The position numbers were made by a program, and so were the translations under genes. Shown here piece by piece: positions 14,427 to 48,027 of a DNA stretch of 64,000 nucleotides (positions are counted from its first letter, which is position 1; every line of letters begins with the position of its first letter). Location: NCBI GenBank assembly GCA_034521495.1, contig JAXHMK010000010.1, positions 372,001 to 436,000 on the forward strand, given 5' to 3'. The DNA comes from Balneolaceae bacterium. Its GTDB lineage: Bacteria > Bacteroidota > Rhodothermia > Balneolales > Balneolaceae. Under the pieces are notes generated by a model. That model was not told where the DNA came from, did not search any database, and was given only the letters and a program-made list of their open reading frames with translations.

Positions 14427-15539
14427 ATGAAAAAAATTCTACTTCTTCAAACAGGCGGCACCATTGCCATGCATTTCGACCAAAACGGGAACGAACTGGA
14501 CCCTGATAAGTGGACTGATGTACTATATGGAGAGATGCCCGAACTCTCAAAAATTGCCGAAATCGATATTAAAAACATTTTTTTTGAAGACAGTTCCGAT
14601 ATCAACCGGTACCATTGGCAAACATTGTGCGAGGTGATTCATAAAAACTTTGATGATTACGACGGATTTGTGATTCTGCACGGAACCGATACGATGGCTT
14701 ACACCGCATCTGCCCTCTCATTTGCACTACAGAATATTACAAAACCTGTAATCTTAACCGGAAGCCAGGTGCCTATGAGTAATATTCGAAGTGATGCACG
14801 CAGAAATCTTATTAATTCTATTGAACTCGCCACCTTAGGGATTCATGAAGTAGCCATCTGTTTCAACGATCACCTCTATCGTGGAAACCGGAGTACAAAG
14901 ATGAGCATTGGTGATTTTGATGCATTTGCTTCTCCCAACTATCCACCGCTGGCCGAAATTGGAATTCGAATTGAGTTATCCGAAGGTTTGCTTGAAAATC
15001 ATCCAAAACAGCGTCAATTTTTTCCCGCTTTTGATGATTCCGTCCAGGTACTAAAAATTTATCCAAACTTAAACCCTGCATATTTAAATGCACTCGATCT
15101 GAACTCCACAAAAGCCATTATCCTGGAAGCTTTTGGCAGTGGAAATATTCCGGGCAAAGGAGACTACAATTTGATCCCCTTTGTTGATAATTGTATCAAA
15201 CAAAACTGCTATGTACTCATCAATTCGCAGGCTCCCTATGATTCTGTAGATTTAACACATTATGCCAGCGGAAAAGCACTTAAAAAAATAGGTGCAATGA
15301 GTTCGGGAGAGATGACGATGGAAGCCACACTAACGAAAACCATGAATCTGCTGGCGCGTAATCTTTCTGATTCCGAATTTATTGATACATTCCAACAATC
15401 AATCGCCGGTGAAAGGTTAAGAGTGACCTTGAAGCGTTCCCGATGCTTCGGGTTCCTTCAAGCGTCACGATCATTCTTAGTAAAGAACGCTTCAAGGACC
15501 TTCGGACGCTTGAAGGTTCAAAATTTTAAAACAATTTAG
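14427..15539 (+). CDS. Type I (cytoplasmic) asparaginase with repeat-derived C-terminal tail
   Basis: A 370-residue L-asparaginase that hydrolyses asparagine to aspartate and ammonia. The two catalytic threonine motifs are intact: TGGTIAM at residues 9-15 and HGTDTMAYTAS at 85-95; LTGSQVPM follows. No signal peptide is present, which fits the type I cytoplasmic enzymes of about 330-350 residues. From about residue 332 (RVTLKRSRCFGFLQASRS...) to the end, the sequence no longer looks like asparaginase: it is encoded by interlocking inverted repeats (15,427-15,516), so the tail probably comes from a repeat element inserted near the original stop. The exonuclease gene follows after five bases. 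Confidence 0.92.
   Translation: MKKILLLQTGGTIAMHFDQNGNELDPDKWTDVLYGEMPELSKIAEIDIKNIFFEDSSDINRYHWQTLCEVIHKNFDDYDGFVILHGTDTMAYTASALSFALQNITKPVILTGSQVPMSNIRSDARRNLINSIELATLGIHEVAICFNDHLYRGNRSTKMSIGDFDAFASPNYPPLAEIGIRIELSEGLLENHPKQRQFFPAFDDSVQVLKIYPNLNPAYLNALDLNSTKAIILEAFGSGNIPGKGDYNLIPFVDNCIKQNCYVLINSQAPYDSVDLTHYASGKALKKIGAMSSGEMTMEATLTKTMNLLARNLSDSEFIDTFQQSIAGERLRVTLKRSRCFGFLQASRSFLVKNASRTFGRLKVQNFKTI
15427..15516. repeat. Interlocking inverted repeats within the 3' end of the asparaginase gene
   Basis: Two pairs of arms alternate: CCTTGAAGCGTTC (15,427-15,439) pairs with GAACGCTTCAAGG (15,485-15,497), and CCTTCAAGCGTC (15,455-15,466) pairs with GACGCTTGAAGG (15,505-15,516). A small CCCGA/TCGGG hairpin lies between them. 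The order A-B-A'-B' could fold into alternative hairpins or a pseudoknot. Confidence 0.7.
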
Positions 15540-15544
15540 AACAC

Positions 15545-16258
15545 ATGTTTTTTGTATTTGATGTTGAAACGGTACCAGATTTTCCATTTATCAGATCCAT
15601 CGTAAACGAACCAGATCTCGCAGAAGACGATCTTTTGATTCTTGCCAGTGAGGAGCTGGCGCGAAACGCTTCTGGTTTTTTACCGCCCATGTATCACAGA
15701 ATGATATCCTGGGTGGGCCTTTGGGTTGAAAATGGCGGCAAGCCTGTACAAAAAATCGGCTGGCATGGAGATGATGAGAAAGAGGGACTAAACAAACTGT
15801 TTGATGCACTTCATACCTATAAAGATTTCGGTTTGATACATCATAATGGCCGCGGCTTCGATCTGCCATTAATCACTTACCGGGCAATGAAACATAATCT
15901 CCAGATGCCGGTCCGCCTGAATCACTACGATATTCGATATCGATTCAGCAAAGTAAATATTGATTTGATGGACGAATTCAGTAATTACGGTGCCAGTTCC
16001 TATCCCAAGCTCAAGCATCTCGGGCAACTGATAGGTGTGCCGTTCAAACAAACTGCCGAGGGAAATGAAGTTCTGAAGATGTACCGGGAAAACAAGCTCG
16101 AAGAGATTGAACACTACTGTTACGAAGATGTAATGGCTACCTATGTAGTTTGGCTTCAAATGAAATTTACAACCGGGGATATTTCCAAGGATGTATTTGA
16201 TAATTTGAATGAAAGGGCTATCGGAAAATTAAAAGAGATACAGGGTAGGGATGAATAA
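15545..16258 (+). CDS. 3'-5' exonuclease of the PolB-like DEDDy family
   Basis: A 237-residue protein of the family described as predicted 3'-5' exonuclease related to the exonuclease domain of DNA polymerase B (DNA_pol_B_exo2). Exo I is FDVETVP (Asp6, Glu8), Exo II is HHNGRGFDLPLI (Asp106) and Exo III is YCYEDVMATYVVW (Tyr191, Asp195), so all four acidic residues and the tyrosine are present. It starts five bases after the asparaginase stop and is probably co-transcribed with it. No polymerase domain is attached. The cellular substrate is not known for the family. Confidence 0.88.
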   Translation: MFFVFDVETVPDFPFIRSIVNEPDLAEDDLLILASEELARNASGFLPPMYHRMISWVGLWVENGGKPVQKIGWHGDDEKEGLNKLFDALHTYKDFGLIHHNGRGFDLPLITYRAMKHNLQMPVRLNHYDIRYRFSKVNIDLMDEFSNYGASSYPKLKHLGQLIGVPFKQTAEGNEVLKMYRENKLEEIEHYCYEDVMATYVVWLQMKFTTGDISKDVFDNLNERAIGKLKEIQGRDE

Positions 16259-16418
16259 CCATTTAAAAAATTTTGCAATACGATTTTGTCCGGTTGTTTA
16301 ATACGTACCGCTTGTAATCTCTTTCGGACGATTAGAGTGGATAACACGGTATTGAGAGTCTACTGAAAAACAACTGTCTGATGGATTCCTTAAAGTCCTC
16401 ATTTACAATTTCATCATT

Positions 16419-17556
16419 TTGAATTATTTGAAAAACATCACTCAATACTCTGATAATAATTATTATGCAATATTTTGGATAATTATTGCGATAGCTTTTC
16501 TGTTGCGATTATCGATCAGTTTCTTCTCCGGCCTTCCCTGGTACTCCGTTGATTCCTACACCTATCTTGAGATGGCAAATGCTATTATAAATGGTGAACC
16601 AATTTTCCCGTTTTCCAAATGGTTTCCCGCTCCTTCTTGCAGGTTTAAAAACTTTGTTACCGGATCTTTGGATTCCAACTTCAGCAATATTAACAAATAT
16701 ATTTGCATCCACAGCTGTAGTTGGTTTGTGTATGGGTATTTCAAAAAGAATCACAAAAAATTCATTAGCAGTAATTTTTGTGGGATTGATAGTGGCTTTT
16801 TACCCAAATCAGCTTAATTATGTCAGGCAAATTTTAACGGAGCCGGTCACAACTTTCTTTCTTGTATTACACGCCTATCTTTTATTTAACAATAAATACT
16901 TTTCTTCAGCCATTTTTTTAGTAATTGCGGCACTGTTTCGGTCAACCCTCTTACCTTTGATACCGATCATGCTGATAATTCTATTTATAACTGAACGTAC
17001 CTGGAATCCAAAAAGTCCTGCCTTTAAATTTTTTGGAGGAACAGCTTCAATAGGTCTGATTTATCTTCTTTTAGTTCTGTTCGATGTAGTGAAACCATCC
17101 AATAATCTTGGTGCAAATCTTCTAATTTCAATCAGTTCATACGGTGGGAATGTTGATTATACTCTGTCAGGGTTCACTTCCGAAGAGATGAAAGAACCCA
17201 TTAAAACGTATCTGTCATTTGCAATCGATCATCCAGTTGAGTATCTCAAACAACGCTTATTGTCCTTGAATGAACTTTGGGGCTGGCCTTCAATGGGAGA
17301 ACCCCCGAGAGGTATCGCAAGAAAACTATTGATCGCAATACGAATTCCATTCTTAATCGGTTCGGTTACTGCTTTATATCTGAATTTCAAAAAAACAGAG
17401 ATATGGATGCTCTTCTCTCCAATTTTGGTTATCACTGTGATTCATGTTTTGTTTTTCTCAACAACCAGGTTTACACATGTGGTTGAACCATTTGCAGTAG
17501 TTTTGACTATGATATCTCTAAATAGCATCTACAATCGTTGGTTTAAAAAGTATTAA
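16419..17556 (+). pseudogene. GT-C glycosyltransferase (ArnT/PMT, GT39-like), interrupted by one frameshift
   Basis: A polytopic membrane glycosyltransferase using a polyprenyl-phosphate sugar. The first part (TTG at 16,419) reads FWIIIAIAFLLRLSISFFSGLPWYSVDSYTYLEMANAIINGEPI, with the acidic loop after the first helix typical of GT-C enzymes. The frame then changes at about 16,603-16,625 and continues as SRFPNGFPLLLAGLKTLLP to the stop at 17,556, with eight or so further helices. Removing one T from the TTTT run near 16,610 would restore the frame. It converges with, and overlaps by four bases, the DprE2-like gene, so it may use the lipid-linked sugar made by that operon. Whether the shift is real or a consensus error is open; the start codon is also uncertain. 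Confidence 0.75.
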
Positions 17557-18290
17557 AGATCTAACCGCTTAAAAATCGGTTCCGGAATCAACCTGATTAC
17601 AAGCATGATGAGTCGCCAAACGGGGTAGACATAGATTACATTTTTCTGTTTAATCACTCCCTTATAAATTGCTTTTCCTACTTGTTCAGGACTTGCGGTT
17701 AATATGTTTGGCAGATCTCTGCCAAAAGTCATTTTGGTCTTTACAAAGCCCGGTTTTATTGTAAGAACGTGTATATTTTTTTTGAAAAGTCGTTGCCTTA
17801 AACCTGATAAGTATGCTGTGAACCCCGCTTTGGCAGATCCATAAATATAATTTTCCTGCCTTCCCCTCTCTCCTGCTACCGAACTAATCCCAGCAATAAA
17901 TCCTTCACCACGTTCAGTAAAATCATCTGCAACAATTTCTAAAATACTCACTGCACCATTGTAGTTCACATCCAGGCTCTTTTTAGCTTCTTCGAAATCA
18001 TTCTGTGCCGTTTCCTGATCTCCCAGGTAGCCGAATGCCAGAACCACACCATTGGGTTTGTAAGTCAGTTTTTGGTAAAACGTTTTATGATTATCAAATG
18101 CGGCTGCATCAAACTCAAACGTTTTTACACGTACATTGTGCTTAATTTTAATATCTGATGCCATCTTATTCAGGTTCGATAAATTCCTGGAGGCAAGCAT
18201 TAAGTTCCAATTGTTCGAAGCAAATTGATGAGCCGTTCCCACCGCGATATCACTATTTGCACCCAAAATTAATAGCCAACGATCGTTCAT
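17553..18290 (-). CDS. SDR family oxidoreductase, DprE2-like (decaprenylphosphoryl-2-keto-ribose reductase)
   Basis: A 245-residue short-chain dehydrogenase. The cofactor motif is LILGANSDIAVGTAHQFA (GxxxxxG variant), the catalytic part is SSVAGERGRQENYIYGSAKAG (Ser, Tyr, Lys present), and the C-terminal hydrophobic stretch (WRLIMLVIRLIPEPIF) would sit at the membrane as in DprE2. In mycobacteria DprE2 reduces the 2-keto intermediate made by DprE1 to decaprenylphosphoryl-arabinose. Its ATG overlaps the stop of the DprE1-like gene by four bases, which makes the pairing strong. The lipid chain length and the sugar made here are unknown. Confidence 0.85.
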   Translation of the reverse strand: MNDRWLLILGANSDIAVGTAHQFASNNWNLMLASRNLSNLNKMASDIKIKHNVRVKTFEFDAAAFDNHKTFYQKLTYKPNGVVLAFGYLGDQETAQNDFEEAKKSLDVNYNGAVSILEIVADDFTERGEGFIAGISSVAGERGRQENYIYGSAKAGFTAYLSGLRQRLFKKNIHVLTIKPGFVKTKMTFGRDLPNILTASPEQVGKAIYKGVIKQKNVIYVYPVWRLIMLVIRLIPEPIFKRLDL

Positions 18291-19585
18291 AAATTCAATC
18301 GGTTTGATTGGAGTGAGTTAAAAATTTTATTCATGCCATATTGATCCCTTATTGAACGGAATTCCTTAGCTTTTGAATACCCGGTATTAAAGATTTCCAC
18401 ACTCATTCTGGCATCTTTTGCAAGGTAAATGCGTCCACCTAAACCAGAAATTATTTTATCGAGGTCGTCCAGGATCTGGAATATTTTATCATCCACTTTA
18501 AAATCGAGCGCCAGCGTATATCCTTCCATTGGAAACGACAACAGGTTTTTATTTTCTTTTCCGAATAACTTTAAAACCCCGAGTGAAGAATACATATTTT
18601 TTTTCTGCAAATAATTGAGAACTTCTTTAATACCATCAAAACTGGTCTTCTTGGGAAGAACAAACTGGTACTGCAGGGGACCCTCTTCACCATATAGCCG
18701 GTTCCAGTTCTTCAAAATATCCAACGGATAAAAAAATGAATCTACAGTCGTCTCACTTCGGTTCTCACTCTTTAAATTTTTTTGATAATAAAGCTGATTA
18801 AACAGTTTTATACTCCATTTATTTAGTAGAAAACCAGGCAACTTGAGGGGCATATTCAATTTCCCGGGGGCTTTATACTCAAACTTATGATCCTCCTTAA
18901 AATGACCTACATTTAAGAGTCCTCTCCCCAATGAGCTGCCGGTCGCCGTACAATCAATCCAGGCAACGGAGTATGGTTCATTATAATATTCTTCAAACGC
19001 CTGAAAAATCTCCTTCAAACAGGCGGTCTTTATTGTTTGTTGGACAATTGTATTTGACTGAACGGATTGCAGGCTGATTGTGGCTTTCAGGATGATGCCT
19101 GTCAGCCCCATTCCACCACAAGTGGCATAAAACAGATCTTTGTTTTTAGTCCTGGAACAAGCTTTAATGGATCCATTCGGCATCATCAATGAAAATTCCG
19201 ATACGTATTCACTGAAAGCACCGTACTGGTGATGATTTTTCCCATGAACATCACTGGCAATGGCACCACCAATCGTAATATATTTAGTACCGGGAGTCAC
19301 TTTCAAAAACCAACCCCGGGGAAGGAATGTTTCCAGAATTTCAGATAGCAAAACACCGGCTTCGCAAGTCAGTAATCCATTTTCAGGATCAAAATGAAGC
19401 ATTCTTTTTGCCGGCCTCATTTTCAGTATTGTGTCAGAGAGCGCACTATCTCCATAACTTCGACCAAATCCATATGGAATAACCGGATTGCGCCCGTCAA
19501 TGTTTTCAAAAAGAGAGTCGTCTGAATTGTAGCGGACAACTTCAGAATCTATAACCGGATAACGTCCCCAACCAGATGTTTTCAT
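18287..19585 (-). CDS. FAD-binding oxidoreductase, DprE1-like (decaprenylphosphoryl-ribose 2-oxidase)
   Basis: A 432-residue VAO-family flavoenzyme. Visible signatures are SGWGRYP, the FAD-binding GFGRSYGDSAL and TPGTKYITIGGAIASDVHGKNHH, and the C-terminal catalytic lysine in GGRIYLAKDARMS (Lys390 from this start). The stretch LSFPMEGYTLALDF aligns with the mycobacterial region holding Cys387, the target of benzothiazinone drugs; here the residue is alanine (Ala359). The ATG at 19,585 is chosen because it overlaps the upstream stop as ATGA; an in-frame TTG upstream lies inside the previous gene. It oxidises the 2-hydroxyl of a polyprenyl-phospho-ribose in the model system. Confidence 0.9.
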   Translation of the reverse strand: MKTSGWGRYPVIDSEVVRYNSDDSLFENIDGRNPVIPYGFGRSYGDSALSDTILKMRPAKRMLHFDPENGLLTCEAGVLLSEILETFLPRGWFLKVTPGTKYITIGGAIASDVHGKNHHQYGAFSEYVSEFSLMMPNGSIKACSRTKNKDLFYATCGGMGLTGIILKATISLQSVQSNTIVQQTIKTACLKEIFQAFEEYYNEPYSVAWIDCTATGSSLGRGLLNVGHFKEDHKFEYKAPGKLNMPLKLPGFLLNKWSIKLFNQLYYQKNLKSENRSETTVDSFFYPLDILKNWNRLYGEEGPLQYQFVLPKKTSFDGIKEVLNYLQKKNMYSSLGVLKLFGKENKNLLSFPMEGYTLALDFKVDDKIFQILDDLDKIISGLGGRIYLAKDARMSVEIFNTGYSKAKEFRSIRDQYGMNKIFNSLQSNRLNL

Positions 19586-20445
19586 AGCAGAAAATAAAAA
19601 ATAAGAAAACTTATCAACCAACTGATTATTGTAAGTTGTAAAAAGAGATCTTTTATTACCAGGTAGGTTGGATTTCCACTTCGATTTTCTACAAAAGTGA
19701 TCTGCATATACCGTAAAATTCCAATGACTACAAATGCGGAAGTCATGTAAATATTTTCAGAATCCAGTCTGGCTATGACATCTTCGGAAAGTGTATACAT
19801 AATATATGCCACAGTTGTAACCCCCGCCATAAAAACCATACCGGCGTTAATCATTTCCAGGTTATAACCATCTGCATTTGTACGGGTTCTGATCCCCTTA
19901 TCTCCAAGTAAAACATCATCTCTTCGTTTAGCAAGTGCCAGGAATAATGCCAGGAGAAATGTTACCAAAACAATCCAATGGGTTGGTGTTACATCAATAA
20001 GTTCGGCTCCTGCGTAAATCCTTAAAACAAACCCGATAGCTATCAGGCTGATATCCAAAATGGATATATGTTTCAGCTTCAATGAGTATGCGAAATTCAT
20101 AAGCACATACAAAGCCAAAACTGTAAGAAAACCCGTATTGAGAAGCGCCCCCCCACCCAGTGATACAATTAACAGTAGAATTGTAAAGATAATTGCGGAG
20201 CGATGAGTTATTTGACCTGATGCAATCGGGCGATCTTTCTTCACCGGGTGCAGTTGATCTTCTTCACGATCTAATACATCATTCAGAGAATAGAGCGCAC
20301 TGGAAGCAAGAGAGAAGAGAATAAATCCTCCAAAAACAGAAGCAATTTTCTCCAGCGAGTATTCAAAACTAAAAAAGAGAGGAGCGAACAAAAACAGATT
20401 CTTAATCCACTGCTGTGGACGCATAAGTTTTAAAAAATGAATCAT
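19582..20445 (-). CDS. Decaprenyl-phosphate phosphoribosyltransferase-like UbiA family prenyltransferase
   Basis: A 287-residue membrane enzyme of the UbiA superfamily. The first aspartate-rich motif is NDVLDREED (residues 55-63), followed by HPVKKDRPIASGQI, a combination characteristic of the Rv3806c branch that transfers 5-phosphoribose from PRPP to polyprenyl phosphate. The second motif region is ALFLALAKRRDDVLL. About nine hydrophobic segments are seen. It starts the UbiA-DprE1-DprE2 operon with four-base overlaps between all three genes. In mycobacteria a separate phosphatase acts after this step; none is encoded next to it here. Confidence 0.9.
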   Translation of the reverse strand: MIHFLKLMRPQQWIKNLFLFAPLFFSFEYSLEKIASVFGGFILFSLASSALYSLNDVLDREEDQLHPVKKDRPIASGQITHRSAIIFTILLLIVSLGGGALLNTGFLTVLALYVLMNFAYSLKLKHISILDISLIAIGFVLRIYAGAELIDVTPTHWIVLVTFLLALFLALAKRRDDVLLGDKGIRTRTNADGYNLEMINAGMVFMAGVTTVAYIMYTLSEDVIARLDSENIYMTSAFVVIGILRYMQITFVENRSGNPTYLVIKDLFLQLTIISWLISFLIFYFLL

Positions 20446-20495
20446 GTTCGTTGCTTTAACTTATCGTCTGATTTCAAGCACAAGCTCCAAATTAT

Positions 20496-20768
20496 TTATC
20501 TTTTACCAGTCAGAAGCCCCACAACAACCACAAAAAGAACTGAACCAATAATCGACCAGATAATTGGAAAGTCTCGCCCGCCAACTTCAACACTAAAAAT
20601 TTCGGGCCAGCCCATTTGTACGCTTAGCCAGGATCCTAACAATGCACCAATAAACCCAACAACAATGGATACGATGCATCCACCCCGGGAGTAACCGGCA
20701 ATTGCCTGTCCAATAGATCCACAAATTCCGGCAATACAAAGTAACAGTAACAGTTCAATAAGTCCCAT
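20496..20768 (-). CDS. GlsB/YeaQ/YmgE family stress-response membrane protein
   Basis: A 90-residue very hydrophobic, glycine-rich protein with three transmembrane segments (IELLLLLCIAGICGSIGQAIAG, GCIVSIVVGFIGALLGSWLS and PIIWSIIGSVLFVVVVGLLTG). This is the transglycosylase-associated/GlsB family, whose members respond to general stress but have no established activity. It lies between the UbiA operon and the gamma-glutamyltransferase gene; a large imperfect palindrome occupies its upstream space. It is slightly longer than the common 80-85 residues because of an extra loop (PEIFSVEVGGRDF). Confidence 0.85.
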   Translation of the reverse strand: MGLIELLLLLCIAGICGSIGQAIAGYSRGGCIVSIVVGFIGALLGSWLSVQMGWPEIFSVEVGGRDFPIIWSIIGSVLFVVVVGLLTGKR

Positions 20769-20821
20769 ATTAAATTATCTCCTCTTTTAATTAGTATTTG
20801 TAAGAAAACTGATTGAGTCCG

Positions 20822-20926
20822 AAGAAAACGTTAAGATCAAGGCGCGCGAAGTCCCAAAAAGCGCAGTGTACTACGTGTACATGAGCATTTTTGGGACAAG
20901 TGGAACGCAGAGATTGACGTTTTCTT
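20822..20926. repeat. Large imperfect palindrome (about 105 bp)
   Basis: Outer arms AAGAAAACGT (20,822-20,831) and ACGTTTTCTT (20,917-20,926) enclose inner arms GTCCCAAAAA (20,851-20,860) and TTTTTGGGAC (20,888-20,897), with a small TGTAC/GTACA centre. The whole could form one long stem or a cruciform. It lies between ggt and glsB, both on the minus strand. It is non-coding. Confidence 0.7.
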
Positions 20927-20951
20927 AGAGACACTAATTAAAATTAACAGA

Positions 20952-22784
20952 TTATTCGCCCATCACAATTCCTTCTCGTCGAGGGTCAGCCCCGCCAAAG
21001 TAACCTGTTTCGGTTTTTTGAATGGCCTGGATACCACTCGTCATGGGGCGAATGATAATTTCATGTCCCAACGCTTCCAATTTATTGATAAAATCTTCAG
21101 GATATCTGTCTTCCTCTAATACGGAAGGACCATTATAGTTTCCAAAATTGGGCAGATCAATCGCATCTTGTGCATTGAGATTCCAATCGTACATTCCAAT
21201 AATTGCTTTTGCTGTATAATGGATAATCGACGTTCCGCCCGGGGACCCAACAGCAGCAATAAACTCCCCCGTCTCCTTGTCAAAGACTAACGACGGAGAC
21301 ATACTCGAGCGAGGTCTTTTGCCGGGTTCTACGCGATTTGCAATGGGATTTCCATCCTCATCAACCGGACTGAGAGAAAAATCTGTGAGCTCATTATTCA
21401 GCATAAATCCGCCGGGCAGGCCGGTTCCGCCATCACTCATAATTCGGCTTCCAAAGCCGCTCTCAATGGTTGTAGTCATGGAAACGGCATTTCCTTCCCG
21501 ATCTACAATACTTATGTGACTCGTTCCAAACTCAGGCTGTGTTTTTTGGACACCGTACACGCTTTGCATGTCTCCCGGTGTTCCTGGCTTGGCTTTTTCC
21601 ATACTTGAATTACTCTGAATAAGATCTGCGCGTTGAGCAAGATAGGTAGAATCCAGCATTGACTGCCAGCTTTCTCCGGGGGGTTCTACAAAACGTTCAT
21701 CGGCTACATATTGATTGCGATCAGCAAAGGCTAATTTAGCCGCCTCAAGATATTGGTGCATCCATTGGGTTGATGGAATAGAATCTTGCAAGCTTACTTC
21801 AGGTTCTTCGAGATTCTCCATTACCCCAAGAATTTGCATGATGGCTAAGTGGCCTGATGCCGGTGGTGGAAATCCACAAATTGTATACGCTTTCCAATCG
21901 TTACACATCTCTTCAGTTTCAAGATCCAGATTTGGATATCCGGCGAGATCTTCCGGAGTCATAGAACCCGGACGTTCATGAGCTTGAATTCTTTCTGAGA
22001 TATCCTGCGCAACTTCACCCTCATAAAATGCCGAAATCCCATCTTTGGAAACTTCTCTCAAAATCTCTGCTAATGCAGGATTCTTAAGCAAATAACCAAC
22101 GGGATGTGGGTTTCCCTGCCCATCGTAATAAAATGATCGTGCCAGCTCGTTGTTTCTCAAGCTTTCATCTTCTTCCAGAATTCCATGAAGTCGCGGTGTG
22201 ATGTTAAACCCCTCTTCGGCGAGTGTAATCGCGGGCTCCAAAACCTGCGGCCACGGCAAGCTTCCAAATCGTTTATGAATCGCATCCATAAGTGCTAACG
22301 TTCCGGGTACACCTACTGACTTCCCACTTCTCACGGCATCCGCAAATGGCAGCGGCTCTCCGTTTTCATCCAGGAATAGCTCCTCTGAAGCACCTGATGG
22401 GGCAATTTCTCGTCCATTTAAAGCATGAATTTCTTCTCCATCCCACAACAAAAAGAAAGCGCCGCCTCCAATTCCGCTCGATTGAGGCTCAACCAAAGCT
22501 AAGACCATCTGAACCGCAACTGCGGCATCCACAGCATTCCCACCGGCTTGTATAATCTGATAACCGGCATCTGTTGAAAGTGGATTGGCAGACGCAACCG
22601 CAAACTCCGAAGTAGCCCAACCCGGCTTGGGTTGATAACCGGTTGAAATTTCAGGCGGTTCCGGAATCTGGTACGAAAGGTCTGTTTGTTTTCCCTGGTT
22701 ATCACAGCTCAAAAAGAGAAATGGAAATACTAAAAAGAGAAGTATATATACTTTTTTTAATATACTTAAAGTACTATATATCAT
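20952..22784 (-). CDS. ggt: Gamma-glutamyltransferase, lipoprotein type
   Basis: A 610-residue gamma-glutamyltransferase that cleaves glutathione-like gamma-glutamyl bonds in the periplasm. A lipoprotein signal is present (FPFLFLSC, acylated Cys27), so the enzyme is membrane-anchored. The core has SGIGGGAFFLLWDG, the autoprocessing site EFGTSHISIVDREGNAVSMTTTIE with nucleophile Thr421, and late motifs GKRPRSSMSPSLVFD and GSPGGTSIIHY. Length and order match a full-length proenzyme that splits into large and small subunits. It may act on bacillithiol-type or peptide substrates rather than glutathione in this group; that is inference. Confidence 0.95.
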   Translation of the reverse strand: MIYSTLSILKKVYILLFLVFPFLFLSCDNQGKQTDLSYQIPEPPEISTGYQPKPGWATSEFAVASANPLSTDAGYQIIQAGGNAVDAAVAVQMVLALVEPQSSGIGGGAFFLLWDGEEIHALNGREIAPSGASEELFLDENGEPLPFADAVRSGKSVGVPGTLALMDAIHKRFGSLPWPQVLEPAITLAEEGFNITPRLHGILEEDESLRNNELARSFYYDGQGNPHPVGYLLKNPALAEILREVSKDGISAFYEGEVAQDISERIQAHERPGSMTPEDLAGYPNLDLETEEMCNDWKAYTICGFPPPASGHLAIMQILGVMENLEEPEVSLQDSIPSTQWMHQYLEAAKLAFADRNQYVADERFVEPPGESWQSMLDSTYLAQRADLIQSNSSMEKAKPGTPGDMQSVYGVQKTQPEFGTSHISIVDREGNAVSMTTTIESGFGSRIMSDGGTGLPGGFMLNNELTDFSLSPVDEDGNPIANRVEPGKRPRSSMSPSLVFDKETGEFIAAVGSPGGTSIIHYTAKAIIGMYDWNLNAQDAIDLPNFGNYNGPSVLEEDRYPEDFINKLEALGHEIIIRPMTSGIQAIQKTETGYFGGADPRREGIVMGE

Positions 22785-36975: not shown

Positions 36976-37736
36976 GTTGATTGATTTCTCAGCCAAACCC
37001 ATTTTTAAATTTTTACTGCGAGAATGTGAAGCGATCCCCAACCCTGTGATTGCTTCACTTCATCGGAGAAGTTACCCCGAAATTTTTACTTATTGAACTG
37101 TAAGTTTAATAAAATCAGAAGGATTCTTTTTTAAACAAGTGGAAATGCTCTTTGTTTGAAAGAAGACTGCATAATAAGCCCCGAAGGGGCGTCATCAATA
37201 GCATGGGGTGAAACCCTATGAAAAATAACGCATTTCATTCGATCAGCCCTGAAAGGGCGTAAGCCCAAGAGATTGTCAGAGGAAAGCTTGCGCCCTTTCA
37301 GGGCTACACAATTCCTATGATTCCCAATACATAGGACTCCGTCCTATGCTATTGATGACGCCCCTTCGGGGCTTTTGATCGAAAAAACTCCTTGGTCCCG
37401 ACGGTTCGGGACGTTTCAAAAACCGAGACAAATTTCATCGCCATTGCTAATTATTTGCTTAAAAAAATGGGGTAACTCCTCACTTCATCGCAATTGATTT
37501 TCATACTTTGGCGGTTCAACTTTCTTTCCTCTTTTATTCTTAAAATTATTCAGGCACCATTCTGTAAGTTCAGTTACAGCTGAATCAATTTTTAAAACTT
37601 TATTACAGTTCGGTTTGGCAATAAGTATTACACTAATATTGTTTTATATTGATTTTTTATGAATGATATCGACCCATATCAGATTAATTTTTTGTCTTCA
37701 ATGCGTTTACAATTAGCTGACTAACGGATCAACTTC
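36976..37736. other. Gene-free stretch containing a 195-bp nested palindrome (37,178-37,372)
   Basis: No gene. The left end GCCCCGAAGGGGCGTCATCA, then ATAGCAT, is mirrored by the right end TGATGACGCCCCTTCGGGGC. Inside, CCCTGAAAGGGCG (about 37,247) mirrors CGCCCTTTCAGGG (about 37,290). A further small hairpin, GTCCCGA/TCGGGAC, is at 37,395-37,412. The left part after the GH31 stop may include its terminator. Confidence 0.6.
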
Positions 37737-45287: not shown

Positions 45288-46094
45288 TGTTATATATGAT
45301 CTGGGTTTATTTCATTTGTTATTATGAGGTAACACACACTTACACTATCTGGATTATTACCTAATCTTCATCTCTTACAGGGAGTTTCAAACATTTTTCA
45401 ATTCATTGCGTCCTATTGCCAATTTAAAGCTTATCTGATTTTGGCTAGTGTAGCAACCAATAAATTAATATAGTGTCAGGATCAATAAATCAATTCAATG
45501 GTCAACTTAAAAAGAGTCTACAAAAGTAGAAAAACACAAATAATTTTGTGCTTTCGTGTTTTTGTGGCTACCTAATTGACTATACTTTTTTATAGATTGT
45601 AACACTAATGTAACCCGAAATTTAAGCACCACGATTACATCATTGATAACGAGGTCAGTTCTTCGAGATCATTTTTTTCGAATGGGACTTTGAAAGAGAA
45701 GAGTATTACGACTTATCCGTACCGTATACGTTTACCGGAGAGATCTATAAAAGAGAAGCGGTGGGACTTATTCTTTTCTATCTATTATTTTTACTGTGGA
45801 TGGGATTAGAAAATTTTGGAATTATTGATTCCATACCTTCACTCCCGGCATGATACATTTAAAACAAGGTTCTACGGGCATCTTTGTGGGTAATAATTTA
45901 AAACATATAATCATCGTGAATCTGTTTGTTCATCCCGATACTTCTGTTAGACTTCAACATTGAGAAAGGTAGTTAACTTCTGCTTTTTATAATACCAGCC
46001 GATCGGAGACAGACTAACCGATTCTCCCGAGATTAAACTCGAAGTCACGAATCAGTCCCTCCGCTCGCGGTATTATCCAAACCTAAATAGCATT
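45288..46094. other. Mostly non-coding stretch with a CaCA-like gene remnant (45,650-45,853)
   Basis: No intact gene. A 25-base core shared with 30,236-30,260 occurs at 45,544-45,568. On the plus strand, 45,650-45,853 is open without a start codon and reads GQFFEIIFFEWDFEREEYYD...GEIYKREAVGLILFYLLFLLW, resembling the last helix and loop of sodium/calcium exchanger-like (CaCA) membrane proteins. It is best seen as a gene end left after deletion; the assignment is tentative. Confidence 0.35.
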
Positions 46095-46194
46095 CCAGTT
46101 TAAAACTATCACTGTAGGTCGGTTGTGGTTTACTACCTTTATTTTTCATCAGCTGACTCCATAAATTGTGTTAAGCTATTTCAGAAAAAGACCA
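46095..46194 (-). mobile_element. IS3-type insertion sequence terminus, remnant copy
   Basis: About 100 bp nearly identical to 49,115-49,215: the upstream end of an IS with the first codons of its orfA (ATG at 46,149, reading MKNKGSKPQPTYSDSFKL on the minus strand). The reading frame then leaves orfA sequence. Only this end remains. Together with the second copy, in the same orientation, it flanks a 3-kb cargo. Confidence 0.75.
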
Positions 46195-46376
46195 TTCTTT
46201 AATCGAACTCAGGTAATGAAGGCTAAAATGCAATAACAAATCCGTATATAGAGAAAAAGGGCATTGCAATTCATTTTACCCAATTTAAACTACTCAAAAT
46301 ACTGATATTTGTGAAGATTGGGTGGATTCTCCACATAGATACTGCTCCACCCCACTCCTGGCAAACGCAGTGTTTC

Positions 46377-48027
46377 TCATTCTGAAGAGCAAACAGTGTC
46401 CAGCTCCTGAATTGATTCAGCCTGAAGAAACTCGCTTATCAGCCTATCTACGCATTCGTTTTCGGGACTGTGACCTGCTCCGGGAACGATGATGTGACGG
46501 CTGTTTGTAAGGTTGCGCATAGTGGCTTCCGCCAGGCTTGGTGGTGTTATCGGGTCCATTTCACCCGAAATCAACAATGTCGGCACATCGGAGGAAACAG
46601 ACTTATGGAAAGATTCAGATACGCTGCCTCGAGGCCATTTGGTGCAGATACGCGCATGGCTGTCCAAGACTGTGCGCCCGAGAAATGTTTTTTTGGTGTT
46701 GCTTGCGATCATAGCATCATCCATCTGCCAGACTAACGGAGCATCTTCGGTACAGGTGACGGAGTAGAACAGGGCCTAAGCTTATAGAGCGCGGAAGCAT
46801 CTCCGCCATTGGGGTGGCGACTTGGATGAAAGGCGCAAAATTGTTTGAAGCAGCTTCATGGATCATTTCCGGCAGTAGCTTCGCTAAAAAAGGTGTGTAA
46901 AGAGCAAATTGGATGCCCCCCGCAAAGATCTCGCGGTTGATCGACACCGCAGATGTATCACCGGATGCGGGATCTACGTATCTGGCTTGTGCGGGTTCTT
47001 CGGAGAGGCGTGTGAGCACCTCATCAAGGTTTTTCGCAAGGGAGGGGAATTGGGTACGGCACTCCTCCTCAGCTGCACACTCTGCAAAACGGCTCTCAAG
47101 GGCTGCCTGCCCGTGACGCGCAGGTAAGAGTGGAATCGGTACACCCGGAGGAGCAACTGACCGAAGTACGAGAGAGCGAACCCGATCGGGATGACGCCGC
47201 GCATAAACAAGTGCCGCACGTGTGCCGTAAGATGTGCCATAGAGATTTATCTGGTCATAGCCAAGCTTAGCTCGCACCTCGTTCAGGTCGTCCATCAGAA
47301 TCGGTGTGGTATAGAGTGCGGGGTCGGCATTAAATTTTTGGAGACATTCCGTAACCAATGAATCCGACAGGCTCCAGGAAAGAAAATTCAGTTTTGCCTG
47401 AGGTGTATCCGGCTCGCAGCGCAGTGCGTTTGACTTTCCTGTACCGCGCAAATCCACAAGAACAATATCTCTATGCTTACGTACGTCTGCAAGATCGCGG
47501 GCTATACCCCGCGCTTCGTTTATTACTGATTGACCTGGACCGCCCGCCAATATGAATAAGGGGTCATGTGCGTTGTTTTCGCTCATTGCAGGTAGAATAG
47601 CAAGGTGGAGTGAAATCATGCGGCCAATCTTCGCCGTCCGATCCTCAAAGACATCGAGAGTGCCGCACCGGAGCATTCCTTCCACACCTTCGATCTCACA
47701 GGGTTCCAGGTTCAGAAGAGGTGCTTCGTTCAGGTGCAGGTCTCCGTTGACCGCCTGCAAGTCCTCAGTGAGTGCCTGTGCAAGTTCGGAAAGTGTTGTG
47801 GTTTTTTGATAGGCACCCGATCGCGCCTGCATCCGTATATGCTCGGCGATTATGCGACCTGCGTCGGGCATCACATAGTGGTACTCGACGAGTGCGGCGA
47901 CGCTGTCTACGGCTGCGATCCGGACTCCCGGATCCATGGCAGAAGTGCTCTCCTGTGCGGCAAGCGGACTGGAAAGAGTTAACAGTACAGATATACCTCT
48001 TAATGTTTTTATCGAATCATTCATCAC
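46377..48027 (-). pseudogene. Alpha/beta hydrolase (TAP/proline iminopeptidase-like) with S41-N-terminal-like domain, one frameshift
   Basis: A secreted hydrolase of about 550 residues: signal peptide (LRGISVLLTLSSPLAAQ), an N-terminal helical domain like that preceding S41/IRBP repeats (VDSVAALVEYHYVMPDAGRI...LTEDLQAVNGDLHL), then the alpha/beta hydrolase core with DPLFILAGGPGQS, nucleophile elbow YGTSYGTRAALVYA, and in the shifted frame LLISGEMDPITPP (acid) and GAGHSPENECV (histidine). The shift lies at about 46,773: removing one C from the CCC run restores SLGLFYSVTCTEDAPLVWQMDD. The gene is visibly richer in G+C than its surroundings and lies between IS ends, so it was probably acquired. 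Confidence 0.82.

Follow-up and report, generated by a model that had tools for sequence, protein, structure and literature searches.

How does a Gram-negative bacterium of the Balneolaceae come to carry relatives of the mycobacterial enzymes of decaprenyl-phospho-arabinose synthesis, and what would these genes make there? The question is raised by a stretch of 64,000 nucleotides (positions 372,001 to 436,000 of contig JAXHMK010000010.1, assembly GCA_034521495.1; hereafter the window), in which four genes lie together. Three of them encode a UbiA-superfamily protein resembling Rv3806c, a DprE1-like oxidase and a DprE2-like reductase, and the fourth, convergent to them, encodes a GT-C-type glycosyltransferase (Table 1). 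Judged from the sequences, this block is probably a transferable pentofuranose cassette, in which synthesis of a D-arabinofuranose (D-Araf) donor would be combined with a convergent GT-C user of that donor. It has the look of a module that is common among bacteria and was transplanted here, not of a mycobacterial oddity.

The original prediction had the three donor genes joined by four-base overlaps, and this was borne out, with an ATGA overlap at both the UbiA/DprE1 and the DprE1/DprE2 junction. The ATG of the DprE1-like gene overlaps the UbiA stop by four bases, the open reading frame (ORF) calling beginning at an upstream TTG at 19621, and the start of the DprE2-like gene shares four bases with the DprE1 stop in the same way. 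The GT-C-type gene ends at 17556 on the + strand and has four bases in common with the end of the DprE2-like gene. Its convergence stood as predicted, but the single reading frame did not, because the gene is spread over two frames in the window. On the whole, the observation made in that prediction was confirmed in part and its interpretation supported in part.

Are the three donor proteins what their names say? The UbiA protein matched Pfam PF01040 at 1.3e-24, above the cut-off, and NCBIfam NF008977 (decaprenyl-phosphate phosphoribosyltransferase) at 1.5e-68 with 231.3 bits, just under the curated cut-off of 234. Its best PDB chain was 8j8j, a decaprenyl-phosphate phosphoribosyltransferase (1.4e-32). 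Twelve residues of Rv3806c hold phosphoribosyl pyrophosphate (PRPP) or the lipid phosphate (PMC10994848, cited, like the other papers below, for the available part of its text), and the 8j8j chain carries the Rv3806c letter at all 12 positions named there. The window protein is identical at nine of them (R22, K28, Y70, N73, K87, R90, Y138, K143 and K191) and differs at three (Q135 is N, Y157 is F and K208 is T). D77 and D81, the two aspartates of the NDxxD..D motif, are our own addition to the published list and are identical too. These 11 residues were all kept in 90 of 90 module-type UbiA proteins of the fetched loci, a set picked by similarity to the window protein, and the full set was found in none of the four other UbiA paralogues of the window genome. 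In the alignment of these distant paralogues, which is rough, none of the four kept K28 and Y70 jointly, and one (L219) kept K28 and K87. Another prenyltransferase role for the window UbiA, such as in heme O or menaquinone synthesis, was set aside on these substrate residues. The Ubi-297 enzyme of the Ebo cluster of marine flavobacteria was also considered as its identity; PMC9235831 groups that enzyme apart from the decaprenyl-phosphate phosphoribosyltransferases, and its available text reports none of the latter from the genomes examined there.

The DprE1-like protein matched PF01565 (FAD_binding_4) and NCBIfam NF053785 (DprE1; 3.9e-114, 382 bits against a curated cut-off of 500), and its best PDB chain was DprE1 at 5.5e-76. 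In the alignment, with positions counted by hand, the HGKNHH motif (H132 motif) and the lysine equivalent to K418 (in AKD) are conserved, both of which we take to be catalytic motif residues of DprE1. By the same count, alanine stands in place of Cys387, presumably the cysteine attacked by benzothiazinones. The DprE2-like protein has the short-chain dehydrogenase/reductase (SDR) fold, with a match to PF00106 (adh_short). It scored 330 bits, above cut-off, with the general model NF005489, and lower with the DprE2 model NF053786 (9.9e-60, 202 bits, below the curated cut-off of 250). Its best PDB chain was nevertheless DprE2 (21gq_C, 2.8e-29), the next chain following at 1e-16. All these family and structure matches lie far outside what chance would give. 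Among solved structures, Rv3806c, DprE1 and DprE2 stand nearest to the trio, the point on which the original prediction had been made to depend beforehand. These matches suggest that the trio very probably makes a polyprenyl-phospho-D-Araf donor.

If the four genes form a cassette, do they come and go together? Within the genus, DprE1 and GT-C were both found in two of 28 genomes, the window genome (G000) and a sister species (G015), and neither had a match in the other 26; the estimated completeness of the 28 genomes is 57-100%, so that a few absences may be gaps. The exonuclease gene at the left border is present in 25 of the 28. Its surroundings were compared in 20 (L065-L084) of the 23 further congeners, and in none of these 20 neighbourhoods did any of the four genes of the cassette give a match. 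Five of them have an empty junction, with the exonuclease and Transgly_assoc matches 22 to 132 bases apart. In eight the junction is filled by other genes over 2.3-8.7 kb: a hydrolase of the beta-lactamase family, identified by Pfam, and, by eye, further hydrolases, receptor-like genes and transporter or ABC-type genes. In the other seven, the Transgly_assoc gene was not on the fetched stretch. Because they are present or absent jointly, and because the junction is empty or otherwise filled in congeners, the four genes seem to move as a single unit, and the junction that holds them is variable. The original prediction had placed donor synthesis beside a possible user, and the link is stronger than it claimed: two congeners have donor genes and GT-C as a single block, and in two further lineages members of this GT-C family also lie by DprE1/DprE2.

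The G+C content of the cassette (0.36-0.40) is a little below that of its flanks (0.41-0.46). No pair of direct repeats flanking the block was found in a search of 15500-21200 (among the 20 listed of 28 direct-repeat families), no integrase was seen by eye at 8-30 kb, and there is no tRNA in the window. In quick trees, made without bootstrap, the window DprE1 grouped with other rows of the order Balneolales at 87, inside a branch of Campylobacterota and Thermodesulfobacteriota at 98, the G000/G015 pair standing outside the main Bacteroidota branch; the nearest row to UbiA belonged to Sulfurospirillaceae (99); and DprE2 fell in a three-row set at 95, the third row by path distance being G039, another genome of the order. 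Since the three trees disagree, no single donor lineage is named.

The GT-C-type protein of the sister species is intact and has 383 amino acids (aa). A crude hydropathy count gives it nine hydrophobic segments, as in a multi-pass membrane protein, and an acidic motif, D-S/T-Y/F-x-Y, was seen by eye in the first loop of the aligned homologues. No Pfam or NCBIfam family matched the sister-species protein at the thresholds used, and the sole family match of the downstream piece in the window was a weak one to NF046093 (27 bits against a cut-off of 150). A relative in Chitinophagales (L170) matches PF13231 (PMT_2) at 7.7e-10, and the putative GT-C class rests on this match together with the crude hydropathy. 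An AlphaFold model from two sequences, L170 and the window downstream piece, had a mean predicted local distance difference test (pLDDT) score of 38. The family, with members of 375-405 aa, is barely touched by current family models. Among the 395 genomes of the phylum group it is present in six (G000, G015, G064, G279, G343 and G426). In G064 the GT-C relative adjoins DprE2-DprE1, and in L170, the seventh member, it is the third gene after UbiA-DprE1-DprE2-HAD. The GT-C is likely a user of the arabinose donor, since it occurs near the trio in three separate lineages and jointly with it in the genus; its donor is not proven, because the family occurs elsewhere without DprE1. In the sister species, the GT-C more probably than not uses the arabinose donor.

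From these genes we infer the reactions, sugar, lipid and acceptor of the following pathway. UbiA would transfer 5-phosphoribose from PRPP onto a polyprenyl phosphate, probably undecaprenyl phosphate, and a phosphatase encoded elsewhere would take off the 5-phosphate. DprE1 would then oxidise C2 and DprE2 would reduce it with inversion, giving polyprenyl-phospho-beta-D-arabinofuranose. After a flippase had turned this lipid over, the convergent GT-C may move D-Araf, in the periplasm, onto a glycan or glycoprotein of the envelope. With its split GT-C frame, the window strain may lack this last step, and we regard the chances of an active transfer there as evenly balanced.

How common is such a module outside mycobacteria? 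A DprE1-like protein (E 1e-30 or better) was detected in 82 of the 395 phylum-group genomes, the window's own counted, and in four of 58 near relatives. A scan of genome contigs gave at least 584 places that encode one, and the best 80 of these belong to Pseudomonadota, Campylobacterota, Thermodesulfobacteriota, Bacteroidota, Chlorobiota and others. For the locus comparison, 40 loci (of the 84 positives in the phylum and near-relative sets) were taken together with these 80. The 110 loci counted leave out L148, which is on the same contig as L008, and nine without a labelled DprE1 (L120, L141, L153, L154, L166, L168, L169, L173 and L199). UbiA, DprE1 and DprE2 form a conserved set, lying within 7 kb in 72 of the 110, usually in the same order as the window trio. 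A HAD-type protein is fused or near in 56 of the 72 complete loci and GtrA in 29, and nine loci have neither, including L005, L007 and L096; a PAP2-like motif was nearby in one of the 110. Because 56 of 72 complete loci carry HAD, a candidate phosphatase of HAD type usually comes with the module in these phyla, in the place that Rv3807c has in mycobacteria, and the window block does not bring one. The label "mycobacterial-type" given in the original prediction is thus misleading, since many Gram-negative phyla have the module and published work describes its use in them (PMC11127046, PMC5080398 and PMC11841053, in their available parts). No publication on this module in Balneolota appeared among the matches listed in the open-licence literature.

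Two further loci of the order Balneolales differ in layout. In G039 (L007, 8822-19817), the murG-murC-ftsQ-ftsA-ftsZ cluster for division and cell wall ends with ftsZ, and behind it, in the same orientation, come UbiA, a multi-pass protein of another kind, DprE1 and DprE2. The gap from ftsZ to the trio is 7, 31 or 82 bases depending on the start codon chosen, the likelier starts giving 7 to 82. On a 4.7-kb contig of G055 (L008, 126-4701), two ORFs of 185 and 75 aa lie between UbiA and DprE1, and a convergent gene, sulfatase-like by eye, follows DprE1; no DprE2 was seen on this contig.

Several points weigh against a complete D-Araf cassette in the window strain. The GT-C gene is frameshifted in the window sequence, and three of the six phylum genomes with the GT-C family (G279, G343 and G426) have no DprE1 match, so that the family is not tied to arabinose. 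All three window proteins miss the NCBIfam curated cut-offs of the mycobacterial equivalogs, which six of seven Gram-negative controls with a displayed score likewise miss. For DprE1 all four controls fall short of 500 (395-441 bits). For UbiA another phylum member passes with 239.3 and the UbiA of a Pseudomonas module misses with 216.5. For DprE2 a Pseudomonas protein reaches 212, and a second control had no DprE2 match at the 1e-60 threshold. Neither a HAD phosphatase nor a GtrA flippase lies beside the cassette; by eye, no phosphatase was seen among the ORFs at 8-30 kb, and no HAD domain appeared in the Pfam scan of the window UbiA. Genome-wide, neither PAP2 nor GtrA turned up in G000, nor anything that matches the module-type HAD of L099. 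Likewise there is no flippase in the four-gene block, MATE- or Wzx-type flippases not having been searched for. We take Rv3807c to be of the PAP2 family and Rv3789 of the GtrA family. The window assembly is 97.4% complete, so the PAP2 absence may be an assembly gap. One PAP2 each was found in G015, G011 and G039; because G011 has no cassette, PAP2 does not track it. Five PF12710 matches occur in G000, one of them over the cut-off, all on contigs other than that of the cassette. The pathway could still run without a phosphatase of its own, since loss of noeN, a candidate phosphatase, merely lowers arabinosylation in rhizobia, according to the available text of PMC5080398.

Is the cassette decaying in the window strain, the GT-C being a pseudogene and the donor genes a remnant? 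A tblastn search of the window with the 383-aa protein gave two high-scoring segment pairs, at 16419-16667 in frame 3 and 16603-17550 in frame 1. The gene thus runs in frame 3 until about 16602 and in frame 1 from about 16603 to 17556, and DNA alignment with the sister species places a single extra base of the window near 16600-16610; the frameshift, put at about 16600-16615, comes after the first conserved Asp motif. It is the sole split gene among the 17 sister-species genes with a window match. But no further stop occurs downstream over 314 codons, and divergence from the sister is third-position-biased on both sides of the break (0.20 at the second and 0.64 at the third position before it, 0.15 and 0.55 after it), for which reasons we regard the break either as recent or as an error of assembly, one such error fitting equally well. 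The three donor genes are intact with the same divergence pattern. The ratio of nonsynonymous to synonymous substitution (dN/dS) was unusable here, the synonymous sites being saturated or nearly so across ten comparisons. Decay is possible, if on the unlikely side. Programmed frameshifting was rejected, given that a single frame runs through the gene of the sister species, and the T-run at the break has four bases, too short to argue phase variation.

A donor module as described could also be accompanied by a GT-C that uses some other polyprenyl-phosphate sugar and is a mere fellow traveller, the real arabinosyltransferase being encoded elsewhere in the genome. The GT-C relatives in the three genomes without a DprE1 match would fit, those of G279 and G426 lying near Wzx- and Wzy-type genes and near a Wzx-type gene, respectively. 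So would several other modules of the phylum, which have larger multi-pass proteins of about 480-560 aa outside the GT-C profile, three of which were tested and had no Pfam match. The presence or absence of GT-C and trio as one block in the genus, and the family members by DprE genes in G064 and L170, make this explanation unlikely. A last alternative is that a different pentofuranose is made, with ribofuranose kept or another epimer formed, by an oxidase and SDR of other specificities. The available part of PMC11127046 describes systems for polyprenyl-P-ribofuranose and xylofuranose in which the UbiA enzyme is a related one, and the SDR of the window scores higher with the general model than with that of DprE2. 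However, a Pseudomonas SDR from a DprE1-linked locus has the same NCBIfam ranking, relatives of both DprE1 and DprE2 are present here with best matches to a solved DprE1-DprE2 entry, and DprE1/E2 homologues are reported in the Araf-containing cases of the same paper. A different sugar therefore seems very improbable, and we keep to D-Araf as the preferred reading.

Which known systems does the putative D-Araf cassette resemble? With the mycobacterial pathway (Rv3806c, Rv3807c, DprE1, DprE2, Rv3789 and Emb/Aft) it shares homologues of UbiA, DprE1 and DprE2 and the conserved substrate residues. It differs in that the window genome has no PAP2 or GtrA family match, in its compact GT-C transferase without a Pfam match in the sister species, and in the alanine at DprE1 position 387, where the cysteine presumably targeted by benzothiazinones is absent.

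Among Gram-negatives, three-component pentofuranose systems with DprE1/E2 homologues for Araf have been described (PMC11127046, available part). They likewise unite a PRPP-type UbiA, epimerising enzymes and a GT-C transferase in one locus, as judged by description, whereas the window has no fused or adjacent HAD phosphatase and no flippase beside it. The rhizobial noeCNHOP operon for D-arabinosylated Nod factors (PMC5080398), likened here by description and not by NoeP sequence, also joins donor genes to a dedicated transferase, but its acceptor is a soluble signal. TfpW, a GT-C family transferase that adds D-Araf polymers to the group IV pilin of Pseudomonas aeruginosa (PMC11841053), is comparable by description too, not by sequence. 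Its acceptor is a pilin, and no pilin gene was seen by eye among the ORFs beside the cassette, a dedicated search not having been made. In Bacteroidota, Chlorobiota, Campylobacterota and Pseudomonadota, the UbiA-(GtrA)-DprE1-DprE2-(HAD) loci of the present comparison have the same trio, usually in the same order, and from these the window block differs by having neither HAD nor GtrA.

The cassette suggests that making lipid-linked arabinose is a trait widespread among Gram-negatives and portable between them, which can vary between close species as one cassette. Two points are worth following: the GT-C, small and unassigned, and the cassette itself in its minimal and apparently mobile form. 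The sister species offers an intact, small and unclassified GT-C whose donor is directly testable, and, with the usual phosphatase and flippase missing, the question arises which enzymes fill those steps. More tentatively, and with considerable doubt, the compact GT-C may found an added family of pentofuranosyltransferases that use polyprenyl-phosphate donors. Together with a minimal donor operon of three genes it would then make up a movable island for envelope modification, swapped in and out at one chromosomal junction; the G039 trio after ftsZ could couple arabinosylation to division.

Table 1. Genes of the putative cassette and of its borders, in window coordinates.
Feature	Position	Strand	Remarks
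UbiA-superfamily polyprenyl-phosphate phosphoribosyltransferase (Rv3806c-like)	19582-20445	-	287 aa; first gene of the operon; PF01040
DprE1-like FAD oxidase	18287-19585	-	432 aa counted from ATG; PF01565
DprE2-like SDR reductase	17553-18290	-	245 aa; PF00106
Compact GT-C-type glycosyltransferase gene, convergent, frameshifted	16419-17556	+	tblastn with the sister-species protein
PolB-type exonuclease gene, conserved, left border of the insertion site	15545-16258	+	PF10108
Transgly_assoc membrane protein gene, right border of the insertion site	20496-20768	-	PF04226

Some other features of the window deserve mention. At 15417-15539, an asparaginase ORF extends about 40 codons beyond the end of its sister-species match (370 against 331 aa), which points to a stop lost or shifted. 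An Rfam match to RF01687 (Acido-Lenti-1 RNA) at 37330-37373 barely reaches the gathering score (37.1 against 37). At 46001-48000 the G+C content is 0.50, against about 0.41 around it, over an ORF at 46717-48027 that is alpha/beta-hydrolase-like by eye; this may be a recent acquisition. Between the Transgly_assoc and gamma-glutamyltranspeptidase genes (20785-20943) lies a dispersed repeat of 159 bases, which can form a hairpin (RNA fold -47.5 kcal/mol, z -7.7). This repeat is absent in the sister species, where the gap between the two genes is only 46 bases (L005, 15158-15203). In the window genome it has 16 matches including its own copy, 11 of which span about 140 bases or more at 71-100% identity.

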